NCBI RefSeq assembly: GCF_000011345.1
Contig: NC_004113.1
Span: 868,001-932,000 of the forward strand
Length of the DNA: 64,000 bases
Direction: 5' to 3'
From: Thermosynechococcus vestitus BP-1
GTDB taxonomy: Bacteria > Cyanobacteriota > Cyanobacteriia > Thermosynechococcales > Thermosynechococcaceae
Part shown: positions 4,825-11,739 of the stretch, piece by piece
How positions within the stretch are numbered: the first letter of the stretch is position 1
Layout of the letters: the number at the start of each line of letters is the position of its first letter
Position numbers and translations under genes: made by a program
The notes under the pieces: generated by a model
The model's input: only the letters and a program-made list of their open reading frames with translations
What the model was told of the DNA's origin: nothing
The model's database searches: none

Positions 4825-4851
4825 GACTATTTCCGACTATTTCCGACTATT
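4825..4851. repeat. short tandem repeat, 10-base unit x 2.7
   Basis: The unit GACTATTTCC occurs twice in full and once as GACTATT, filling the gap between the PRC-barrel gene and the DciA-like gene and touching the stop codon of the former. A single related GACTATTTCC also lies at 5883-5892, at the end of the next upstream gene on the same strand. No function is evident; replication slippage is a simple explanation. Confidence 0.8.
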
Positions 4852-5737
4852 CGTGATCGTATTCCTCTTGCTTTTGCCGCTGCTCAAGGCGAATCGGTTG
4901 CTGTTCTTCCCAAGGATCCGCAGAGGGTTCTGATTCCGGTAGTTCTACGGGCATGGCTTGGGCTGGAGGTTTAACTTGGCGGGGGCGAGGACGCTCTTCG
5001 TACTCATACTCCTCCTCCTCGTACTCCACATACTCGGGCTGACGACGGCGCCGCCGTGGAGCAGTTTCCCAATCGACTTCGTAATCGCTGCGGCTGCGTT
5101 GGGGGGGATAGACGGGCGATCGCGCCCCTGAAGGCAGTTGATTACTGCTCGGCGTAACGGGTTGATAGTACTCATCCTCGTCGCTTTCCCAAGGAGGTGC
5201 TCCTAGACCAATCCGTTCTAAGAGTCCCACTGTCAATTGCCGCAGGCGGGTTTCTGCCCCTTCAAAGACGATAATGCGATCGGGTCCGGTGCTGACAATT
5301 TCCTCAATGGGCAATTCGTAGGTGCTAATCAGTTGGGCCGGAATCCATGGCAAGCCAATGGACGCCAAAATCAAATCCGTAATGTCGCCCGTGTCTGGAT
5401 CAAACTTAAAGCCCCGCACCTTACCCAGCAATTCGCCGGTTTCCGTCACAATCTCACTATCAATCAGTGTGCTGTAGTTGTAGGTATTCAGAGCCTCGAT
5501 GACATCATCATCGTGCTCAACGAGAATGACATCGCCAATTTGGCGAATACTGTCGAGAAGAATGTAGCGTTGCTCTCCGGTAAAGAGGGTATTGCGTACC
5601 CCCAAGGCCACCACTTGCCGCTGGTCAGTATCGACCCAAACTTGATTAATGACGCCTAACTTCCGACCAGTATCACGGGTAATTACCTGTGTACCGATCA
5701 AATCTGCCCGTTGCAGCAATTGCGTCGATATGGTCAT
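4847..5737 (-). CDS. PRC-barrel domain protein with acidic, tyrosine-rich tail
   Basis: The chosen start ATG 5737 gives 296 residues. Two PRC-barrel repeats are visible: LIGTQVITRDTGRKLGVINQ near residue 10 and IVTETGELLGKVRGFKFD near residue 90. PRC barrels occur in photosynthetic reaction-centre H subunits and in RNA-processing proteins. The two-barrel form is common in cyanobacteria with unknown function. The C-terminal third is low-complexity: Pro-, Arg- and Ser-rich, with a run of Glu and Tyr (EYVEYEEEEYEYEE) and a QEEYDHE end, so it is probably disordered. An in-frame ATG 27 codons further up would extend the protein, but the PRC family normally begins near MTISTQLL, and AAAGG precedes it. 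Confidence 0.8.
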   Translation of the reverse strand: MTISTQLLQRADLIGTQVITRDTGRKLGVINQVWVDTDQRQVVALGVRNTLFTGEQRYILLDSIRQIGDVILVEHDDDVIEALNTYNYSTLIDSEIVTETGELLGKVRGFKFDPDTGDITDLILASIGLPWIPAQLISTYELPIEEIVSTGPDRIIVFEGAETRLRQLTVGLLERIGLGAPPWESDEDEYYQPVTPSSNQLPSGARSPVYPPQRSRSDYEVDWETAPRRRRRQPEYVEYEEEEYEYEERPRPRQVKPPAQAMPVELPESEPSADPWEEQQPIRLEQRQKQEEYDHE

Positions 5738-5884
5738 GCCTTTGTGTATCCCAATGAATCTTAGTAATACTATAGCGGCGAATACCGATGGTACGCCAAA
5801 GGCGATCGCAGGAGTCATCCATTCCCCATGCCATCGGTGCTTCTAGGCTAGCGCATTTTTGCCAAACTGCTGCGTTGGATCGGA

Positions 5885-6355
5885 CTATTTCCCTAGGATA
5901 GACTGGGTCAGTGCCATCACAGGCTGCATGAACGGTACTTCCTCACCCGAGAGCACTTGATGGACGACTTCGGGCAGAACTTGGTACGTCGCCTGAGCCG
6001 CCTTCTCATCCTTGAAGGCCTTGATGATTGTGCGGTACCACAGCAAGAAGCCATCCCGCAGGGCATCCAGATCTGCAAATAACATCGCGGTTGCCGCTAG
6101 GCGCAGCACATGCTTGCGATCGCGCCGACACACCGCTGCATAGTCCTGATTACCCTTACGGAAGATGTGGGGATTTTTGAGCCGCAGTTGCTGATCTACC
6201 TGATCAAGGATTTTCTCCTCAGCATCCCGGATTTTTTCGTAGGCACAAATGCGCTGCTCTGCCGCCGCTAGATAATTTCTGAGAAATTCTAGTTCCGTCG
6301 CACTGGCATAGCGACCGTCGGCCTCAAGGCTGAGTTTTTCCAGTTGACGCAGCAT
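5885..6355 (-). CDS. phycobilisome-domain (phycobiliprotein-like) protein, distal copy
   Basis: This 156-residue globin-fold protein of the phycobiliprotein family has ADGRYAS and LRNYLAAAEQRICAYEKIR in the N-terminal helices. VCRRD at Cys76 aligns with the bilin-binding Cys of the CLRD motif of allophycocyanin. Then follows MLFADLDALRDGFLLWYRTI. It is not a normal ApcA/ApcB/CpcA/CpcB subunit: conserved bilin-contact segments around the Cys differ. Such proteins occur with V4R-domain proteins in the slr0144-slr0152 photosystem II assembly cluster of Synechocystis. It is 21 bases downstream of the paralogue at 6377. Whether it binds a bilin cannot be told from sequence. Confidence 0.8.
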   Translation of the reverse strand: MLRQLEKLSLEADGRYASATELEFLRNYLAAAEQRICAYEKIRDAEEKILDQVDQQLRLKNPHIFRKGNQDYAAVCRRDRKHVLRLAATAMLFADLDALRDGFLLWYRTIIKAFKDEKAAQATYQVLPEVVHQVLSGEEVPFMQPVMALTQSILGK

Positions 6356-6376
6356 AAGTCTTGCCCCAGAGCAATT

Positions 6377-6850
6377 CTATTCTGACAAAATTGAACTGCC
6401 GAGGGCAAGGACAGGCTGCATCACCCGTTGTTCTTCGGGCGTGAGCAGTTGCTTGATCATGGTCGGCAGGTACTTGCCATAGGTGGAGGAAGCGGCGGCC
6501 TCATAGTTGAAGGATTTGACAATCGTGCGATACCACAGCAGGAAGTTATCCCGCAGCAAATCTAACTCGGAAAAGAGCATTGCCGAAGCACACAGGCGAA
6601 TCGTATCCACCAAGTCGCGACGGCAGATTTCTGAGCGATCGCCATTGACGAAATGGAAACAGTGGGGATTTTCTGCCTTTTGCATAGATTGAATTTTATC
6701 CGCCATCATTTCCGCCTCAGCACGGATTTTTTCGTAGGCACTGATGCGAGTCTCCACCGAGGCCAGATAATCATGCAGAAAGTTTAACTCCTCAGGACGA
6801 GCATAGCGACCATCGGCAACAACGGTTAAGTGATTCAACTGACGGAACAT
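6377..6850 (-). CDS. phycobilisome-domain (phycobiliprotein-like) protein, proximal copy
   Basis: This 157-residue paralogue of the downstream gene has the same architecture: ADGRYARPEELNFLHDYLA, ISAYEKIRAEAE and ICRRD, with Cys at the same position 76 as in its partner, then MLFSELDLLRDNFLLWYRTIVKSF. The pair could form an alpha/beta-like heterodimer; that is inference. It lies 45 bases after the V4R gene on the same strand. An extra Cys64 (NPHCFHF) is present here but not in the other copy. It probably acts in the cytoplasm or on the thylakoid surface, in photosystem II or pigment assembly if the Synechocystis parallel holds. Confidence 0.8.
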   Translation of the reverse strand: MFRQLNHLTVVADGRYARPEELNFLHDYLASVETRISAYEKIRAEAEMMADKIQSMQKAENPHCFHFVNGDRSEICRRDLVDTIRLCASAMLFSELDLLRDNFLLWYRTIVKSFNYEAAASSTYGKYLPTMIKQLLTPEEQRVMQPVLALGSSILSE

Positions 6851-6895
6851 AGGGCAATCCTCGCTAGAAAATCAATGAACACACTTCCCTATCGC

Positions 6896-7627
6896 TTATC
6901 GTTTCACCAGCTCCCCTTGGCGCAGGCGTTTTTCAATATCCCGTGCCGTCGCTCCTTCGTTTTGCCAGAAGGCAGCAGCATCAATGCGATCCTGTTTACC
7001 GACGAGGAACTTACAGTAGGTTTCCCCCATGGCGTAGCACTGCAACTCAATGCAACCCAGGGGCTTTTGAATCAAGCCCGAAAAGAAGCCGGCAAATAGA
7101 CCAGCATAGATATAGCAGACCGGTTTGCCCACATCCCCCAGAGTGCGTGCTACCACGGAGTCAAAGATATTGATGAACATAAAACCGTTCTTTTGCTCCG
7201 TGAGATCCACTTCCCAGTTTCCCCAGCCTAGGGTTGTAAAGGGCCACCACCAAGCCTCTAGAATAAATGTCAAAGCAGCCTTGCGTAGCTCCCGCTGGTA
7301 CTCCTGCTCAAAGTGTTGCTTAAAGACAACTGCATCGCGCTTACCCCATTCTTCGCCAATTCTGTACATAACGAGGGTCGAGGCAGGGCCAACTTCCTCT
7401 TCGAGACCTTCCACTAGACCAATAACAAAGTCTTCGGTCGCTAAGGCAATCCGCTGATCATACCAGTCAGTAATGCTGCCCCGTTGGCTATCAAATTGGA
7501 GATAGTCCCGCAGGCTATAGTGATTGGTGCGGCTTGGATGGATTTGGTGTAACCGATGCTGATAGCCCTGGGCAGGGATCATAGGATTGGCACTTTCAGC
7601 AGCGTGAGACGGCGTGACAGAAACCAT
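6896..7627 (-). CDS. V4R (4-vinyl reductase) domain protein
   Basis: The protein has 243 residues. The V4R fold is seen in the C-terminal half: ARTLGDVGKPVCYIYAGLFAGFFSGL and CIELQCYAMGETYCKFLVG, the Cys-rich end typical of this domain. V4R domains occur in BchJ-like proteins, in XylR/PoxR sensors and in TRAPP-related folds, and bind small molecules or metals. The protein resembles Slr0144/Slr0147 of Synechocystis, whose gene cluster is needed for efficient photosystem II assembly. It heads a run with two phycobilisome-domain genes on the same strand, and the spacing suggests an operon. No ferredoxin or kinase genes of the Synechocystis cluster follow here. Confidence 0.78.
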   Translation of the reverse strand: MVSVTPSHAAESANPMIPAQGYQHRLHQIHPSRTNHYSLRDYLQFDSQRGSITDWYDQRIALATEDFVIGLVEGLEEEVGPASTLVMYRIGEEWGKRDAVVFKQHFEQEYQRELRKAALTFILEAWWWPFTTLGWGNWEVDLTEQKNGFMFINIFDSVVARTLGDVGKPVCYIYAGLFAGFFSGLIQKPLGCIELQCYAMGETYCKFLVGKQDRIDAAAFWQNEGATARDIEKRLRQGELVKR

Positions 7628-7739: not shown

Positions 7740-10738
<2,999 letters not shown>

Positions 10739-10746
10739 AGCAACTC

Positions 10747-11739
10747 CTAGGGGGTGGACTTAAAGGGACTGCGTTTTTTGCGTCCAGATTTTTTCTGTTT
10801 GGCTTTTTCGTAATCCAATTCTTTGAGTTTACGCAGAATTCGGGTGAAATAGTCCTGTAAATACTCCTCAAGGGTCAGGGTTGCGTTGGGATCGAGGTCA
10901 AAGGTGCGATAGACGTCCTCCATCGGGGCATTGAAAACTTGACCACTGGCAATCACTTCCGTAAAGGCCAGGCGATCGCTAATGTTCCATGTCCACTGAA
11001 ACCACTGGGTGGCCTGCCGTGCTGCTCGCAAGACGCCAATGGGCAAGCGGGTAATTTTTGCCTGCTGTCCTGAGAGGTTTTCACATAGCTGAATAATTTC
11101 ATCCGCTGTCCAAGCGCGGGTGCCCGCTAAGTCAAAGGTTTTGCCATAGGTGGCAGGCCGATCAATGGCCCGCACTGCAAATTTGGCCACATCCTGGGTA
11201 TCCATGTAGGCAATGGCGGTGGACTCTCCTAAAACCCAAATGGATTGATTTTCCAAAATCGGGATCGCATATTGGCCAATTAAGCCCTGAAAGAAGCCAC
11301 AGGGACGCAGAATCGTGTAGTTTAGCCCCGATTCGCGCAGGAAGTCCTCGGTACAGTGTTTGATTTGCATCAGCGGCACCTGGGGATAATCCTGCGCCCT
11401 CATAATTGAGAAAAAGATCAAGTGTTCAATATCAGCAGCCTGGGCAGCCTGAATCAGGTTGACTTTGCCTTGCCAGTCCACTGCTGCGATGGTTAGCGTA
11501 TCGGTGGGACGAGTGGCAGAGGCATCAATGACTACCGCGGCTTTGGCGTACTTCAGTGCCTCAAGAATACTGTCGGCGGCACAGAGGTTTCCCTGAAGAA
11601 TCGTGGCGCCCCACTCCCGCAGAAATGTGGCTTTGGCCGGACTGCGGACAAAACAATAGACGTGATGTCCTTCATCTAGGGCACGGCGGACAATTTGCCG
11701 CCCTAGGGTACCTGTACCGCCAACGATAAAAACGTTCAT
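10747..11739 (-). CDS. ycf39: Ycf39 / HCF244-type photosystem II assembly factor
   Basis: This is a 330-residue atypical short-chain dehydrogenase/NmrA-like protein. The N-terminus [21 protein letters not shown] is the NAD(P)-binding Rossmann motif. It matches the Ycf39 family along its length ([56 protein letters not shown]). Ycf39 forms a complex with high-light-inducible proteins that helps deliver chlorophyll to newly made D1 and assists D1 synthesis on the thylakoid. The C-terminal basic stretch ([12 protein letters not shown]) is a local addition. It is the first gene of the ycf39-nadK-ligA run. Confidence 0.93.

Follow-up and report, generated by a model that had tools for sequence, protein, structure and literature searches.

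The three adjacent genes at positions 5885 to 7627 of the window (the whole 64,000-nucleotide stretch of Thermosynechococcus vestitus BP-1 DNA analysed here) are almost certainly a relocated and duplicated part of the slr0144-slr0149 cluster, known as the Pap or BBAG cluster. Judged from sequence and gene order, a known cluster was here split and duplicated in one lineage, and the locus is no pared-down, minimal form of it. General duplication and loss within the cluster were already known (Rockwell et al., PMC10151467); no description of this arrangement was found in the searchable literature, outside which most subscription journals lie. The whole explanation, in which the trio is also the arm of the Pap complex that carries bilin, is given a probability of about 0.6.

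The genes lie on the minus strand in the order V4RA' (7627 to 6896), G149a (6850 to 6377) and G149b (6355 to 5885), separated by gaps of 45 and 21 bp. V4RA' encodes a 243-residue protein with a Pfam V4R domain (E=5.1e-22); it is of the slr0144 type and is the second such copy in the genome. G149a (157 residues; Pfam Phycobilisome, PF00502, E=1e-9) is an slr0149-type BBAG globin carrying the motif ICRRDL, with the cysteine at position 76. G149b (156 residues; PF00502, E=4.1e-18; motif VCRRDR) is its tandem paralogue, the two being 52% identical. All three Pfam scores are above the gathering cut-offs, in agreement with the earlier note. The three reading frames match its stated coordinates exactly, and it was also correct that genes for ferredoxin, kinase and a second V4R protein are absent beside them. 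The slr names are assigned by position in the Synechocystis order slr0144-slr0152 and not by comparison with Synechocystis sequences. Between the trio and its counterparts in congeners, dN/dS is 0.06-0.19 in every pair with dS < 1.5, showing that purifying selection, as estimated from these substitution rates, acts on all three genes. Promoter-like sites are no more frequent than in shuffled sequences. A phage source of the globin was rejected, there being zero matches in the phage collection.

The neighbouring genes are context and do not belong to the unit. Upstream of the trio is ligA (7740..10094, minus strand; NCBIfam LigA, 1.6e-264), and immediately downstream, in the same orientation, comes a gene for a PRC-barrel protein (4847..5818, minus strand; Pfam PRC, 1.6e-22). 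The PRC-barrel gene adjoins the trio in most, but not all, of the Thermosynechococcus species read. The ligA gene is directly upstream in the seven Thermosynechococcus loci read, in G209, which represents one of two sister genera, and in Aphanocapsa sp. GSE-SYN-MK-11-07L; it is not adjacent to the trio in G211, from the other sister genus. As listed, the ligA reading frame shares about 280 bases with nadK. The LigA profile starts only at residue 104, so that the true start is probably about 100 codons downstream of the listed one. Positions 9815-11739, upstream of ligA and on the same strand, hold nadK and a gene for an NmrA-type reductase-like protein of 330 residues, which presumably resembles the photosystem II (PSII) assembly factor Ycf39. 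The Thermosynechococcus loci that were read show the same placement.

The rest of the cluster is found elsewhere in the genome, which is a single contig of 2,593,857 bp. Searching the genome with the window V4R protein brings up, besides the window copy itself, a 70% identical copy at 2,388.7 kb and a distant V4R protein at 2,390.5 kb, three in all. The main cluster lies on a single strand and comprises genes for V4RA, an slr0145-like protein, an slr0146-like PF00502 globin lacking the chromophore cysteine, a second V4R protein, a 2Fe-2S ferredoxin, a TPR protein and a Ser/Thr kinase. The second V4R, ferredoxin and kinase genes are at about 2,390.5-2,394.4 kb, beside the other V4RA copy and 1.5 Mb from the trio. 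The main-cluster V4RA is 66-70% identical to V4RA'. The earlier note was right to liken the window protein to slr0144 and to relate the locus to the Synechocystis PSII-assembly cluster. Compared with other cyanobacteria, the one core gene absent from the main cluster is the slr0149-type globin gene, usually situated between those for the ferredoxin and the TPR protein, and a search of the genome found no slr0149-type genes other than G149a and G149b. The earlier note had taken the globins to be counterparts of slr0145 and slr0146 in a reduced cluster. Trees and gene order instead make both of them slr0149 paralogues, and the other members are grouped at a second locus, from which the slr0149 gene alone is absent. 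The missing genes were thus found adjacent to one another in another copy, an outcome set down beforehand as telling against that reading, in the very same genome.

Two further features of the main cluster were observed. The Thermosynechococcus slr0145-like protein (L004:7224-7946) is about twice as long as other cyanobacterial versions and contains about five degenerate repeats resembling FFxxLNWxG. The bilin reductase gene pcyA lies about 3.2 kb past the kinase gene (G000:C1:2388700-2398257). Seven Thermosynechococcus genomes have it at most 10 kb from the main-cluster V4RA; G212, G219, G209 and G211 do not, and its nearness was for this reason rejected as a relic of an ancestral bilin cluster. 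Apparently, a later rearrangement returned the bilin reductase gene to the side of its ancestral partners.

A tree of all globin types places the window globins in the 0149 clade (100/97); the 0146 clade (100/98) is distinct from it. The light-harvesting phycobiliproteins of the same genome (ApcA/B/D/E/F and CpcA/B) form a clade of their own (100/100), and grouping the window pair with them is rejected (AU p=6.7e-76). By this placement, G149a and G149b are bilin biosynthesis-associated globins (BBAGs) of the slr0149 type, outside the light-harvesting lineage; slr0149 itself has been named the cyanobacterial bilin globin (PMC10151467). A globin of G010, another member of the phylum, is also on the BBAG side of the tree, as expected from Rockwell et al. 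Its gene is accompanied by those for a V4R protein, a heme oxygenase and a ferredoxin; the same contig also has a bilin reductase gene.

Both window globins have the sequence CRRD at the alignment column of the phycobiliprotein chromophore cysteine. The presence of the bilin-attachment motif in both makes a globin pair plausible. The AlphaFold2 model of G149a (pLDDT 90) is folded like a phycobiliprotein and matches allophycocyanin chains best in the PDB, with a TM score of about 0.8. An Asp-Gly-Arg-Tyr stretch near the N-terminus and an arginine past the chromophore site are also kept in both globins. In phycobiliproteins these residues are part of the alpha/beta interface, and their retention is a suggestive pointer to alpha/beta-like pairing.

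The residues C171, E194, C197 and C205 of V4RA' are invariant in 32 homologues and align with the zinc-site region of MopR; they correspond to the four zinc ligands of DmpR (PMC7264223). The model of V4RA' is of moderate confidence (pLDDT 69.5) and its fold resembles the phenol-sensing domains of PoxR, MopR and DmpR. V4RA' probably has a zinc-containing, small-molecule-binding fold.

The history of the locus can be followed in a survey of gene order that covered 135 sequence stretches from roughly 110 genomes, with contigs scanned using a profile built on V4RA. A common cyanobacterial order in this sample is V4RA-0145-0146-V4RB-Fd-0149-TPR, often followed by the kinase gene, and another large group has Fd-0149 ahead of V4RA, or 0149 alone. 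Three divergent loci (L070, L074 and L075) are ordered Fd-V4RA-G149-V4RB. The arrangement V4RA'-G149a-G149b occurs in 13 of 29 family genomes, 11 of them Thermosynechococcus and the others G209 and G211. Together these form a derived clade in which the trio is kept without exception (13/13), V4RA' always being directly upstream of the globin genes. The main-cluster copies of V4RA and V4RB are also present in all 13, and the main clusters read in this lineage still contain 0145, the gene for the 0146-type globin, Fd and TPR and have no 0149 gene. None of the 29 family genomes has the trio without the main cluster. Aphanocapsa (G205) has ligA-V4RA-G149, with one globin gene, at one place and 0145-G146-V4RB-Fd-TPR-kinase, without V4RA or 0149, at a second (the two being L135/L136); there are no duplicates. 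Its gene order shows what is read here as a single-globin intermediate stage.

G149a and G149b form sister clades in the trees, as do the window and main-cluster V4RA proteins. The duplication that produced G149a and G149b is, in the globin tree, older than the split of Thermosynechococcus from the two sister genera. The comparison shows that an slr0144-type V4R gene and the slr0149-type globin gene left the cluster, or were copied out of it, in an ancestor of the Thermosynechococcus lineage. The pair came to lie behind ligA, the landing site, and the globin gene was then duplicated in tandem. V4RA is now at both places, and the remaining cluster stayed together without an slr0149 gene. Whether relocation preceded or followed the V4RA duplication hinges on the position of the Aphanocapsa V4RA in the tree (AU p of 0.41 and 0.19 for the alternative orders).

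The functional part of the explanation, a bilin-carrying globin pair and a V4R protein acting with the Pap complex in PSII biogenesis, is put forward tentatively, at somewhat less than even odds. G149a and G149b would each carry a covalent bilin, as predicted from the CxRD site and the phycobiliprotein fold, and might pair in the manner of phycobiliprotein alpha and beta subunits. V4RA' would be the partner of the globins, perhaps loading the tetrapyrrole or holding it. With the main-cluster proteins, the trio would serve the Pap complex as its bilin-carrying arm in PSII assembly or repair, supplying the main cluster in trans without replacing it, and the globin pair of Thermosynechococcus would take the place of the single slr0149 protein. 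Interactions among the proteins Slr0144-Slr0149 are confirmed by a Slr0149-GFP pull-down (PMC9880817). Loss of the Synechocystis operon lowers PSII activity, and the operon affects PSII assembly; this phenotype has been described for the Synechocystis operon alone (PMC9145668). The PSII effects may, however, stem from slr0150-slr0152 and not from the core genes (Rockwell et al., PMC10151467). Bilin binding has been demonstrated for BBAG-1, BBAG-2 and BBAG-3, which are from bacteria other than cyanobacteria, and BBAG-1 and BBAG-3 bind bilins in Escherichia coli without lyases (PMC10151467). No cyanobacterial BBAG with demonstrated bilin binding was found in the literature searched.

It is rather unlikely that the globins are chromophore-free in the cell and serve as a scaffold or sensor, with V4RA' sensing another small molecule and regulating PSII biogenesis. 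Nevertheless, the family does use the fold without a covalent bilin. The chromophore cysteine is present in 67 of 109 aligned G149 proteins and is replaced by tryptophan in 34, tryptophan being nearly the sole substitute and the aspartate being kept. At least 4 to 6 switches between cysteine and tryptophan occurred in the G149 tree. Tryptophan at this site is frequent in proteins whose gene is placed ahead of V4RA or occurs alone, and infrequent in the order Fd-G149-TPR. Its replacing the cysteine in many cyanobacteria indicates that cluster function there does not depend on a covalent bilin. The 0146 paralogue has lost the motif, the site types listed for 108 G146 proteins being without its aspartate. 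(A quick pattern search had suggested a cysteine motif in some 0146-type globins, but on alignment it is near the N-terminus and not at the chromophore site.) The likeness of V4RA' to phenol-sensing domains also fits a chromophore-free role. Against it, the cysteine is kept in both globins, under purifying selection, in all 12 G149a-G149b loci read. A separate, dedicated bilin-handling or bilin-sensing complex, in which an obligate bilin-loaded heterodimer with its own V4R chaperone performs a lineage-specific task in thermophiles, is unlikely.

It is quite improbable that the trio is a minimal working unit, as the earlier note had proposed, in which a V4R protein and a globin heterodimer suffice and the ferredoxin, kinase and second V4R protein are dispensable. 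The three genes form a compact set conserved across 13 genomes, V4RA and one globin gene travel as a pair in Aphanocapsa, and the two genes are adjacent or nearly so in L070, L074 and L075. However, every trio genome keeps its main cluster, as far as described above, and Aphanocapsa, with its single V4RA and 0149 genes off-cluster, still keeps the remaining genes. There is no evidence for self-sufficiency, and the genes thought to be missing are beside another V4RA copy. Specialised phycobilisome-core subunits, that is, light-harvesting variants of ApcA and ApcB, would account for the PF00502 domain, the CxRD motif and the best sequence and fold matches in the PDB, which are phycobilisome-core chains; Acaryochloris homologues were once annotated as apcA (PMC6002478). 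This is highly improbable, given that the window globins are outside the light-harvesting clade and linked to V4R genes, that the phycobiliproteins of the same genome have a stretch about 11 residues longer ahead of the cysteine, and that the BBAGs studied are weakly fluorescent (PMC10151467). The duplicated origin and the second V4RA copy might suggest redundant genes drifting without a distinct role. This is hardly credible, being largely refuted by the low dN/dS and opposed by the retention of all copies in 13/13 genomes and by the lack of another slr0149-type gene in the genome.

In the preferred reading, a relocated piece of the Pap cluster, one V4R gene and one bilin-globin gene were pulled from the cluster and both were doubled, suggesting that V4RA and the slr0149-type globin are partners. 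Rockwell et al. treat the role of these globins in cyanobacteria as a question yet to be answered (PMC10151467), and two thermophile globins with the attachment cysteine are suited to probing bilin binding, pairing and the PSII link outside a complex operon.

V4RA' shares with the V4R sensors DmpR, MopR and PoxR the V4R fold and the Cys-Glu-Cys-Cys pattern of zinc ligands, but has no AAA+ or DNA-binding domain and has an N-terminal region of its own. The window globins resemble the allophycocyanin alpha and beta chains in fold and in the Cys-x-Arg-Asp chromophore site, yet are only about 14-22% identical to them in structure alignments, belong to a separate clade and have a shorter loop before the cysteine. 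The BBAG clusters (Rockwell et al. 2023, PMC10151467) have the same globin lineage, CxRD motif and V4R linkage. Unlike those of BBAG-1 and BBAG-3, the window locus lacks heme oxygenase, Fe-S and bilin reductase genes; it has two CxRD globins with one V4R protein, and bilin binding is here predicted from sequence. The 2Fe-2S linkage typical of BBAGs is absent from the trio locus, the Fer2 gene being in the main cluster 1.5 Mb away, although this linkage varies among cyanobacterial BBAG clusters, which are duplicated or lost in places (PMC10151467). There is also a close likeness to slr0144-slr0152 of Synechocystis, the Pap operon (Wegener et al. 2008, as described in PMC4853703 and PMC9145668): V4RA' is of the slr0144 type, both globins are of the slr0149 type and the other core genes are in the same genome. 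In place of the single-locus order V4RA-0145-0146-V4RB-Fd-0149-TPR-kinase, the window has only V4RA' and two 0149-type genes. The cluster is divided here between two loci 1.5 Mb apart, with V4RA at both, and slr0149 is represented by two divergent tandem copies beside V4RA' and by none in the main cluster.
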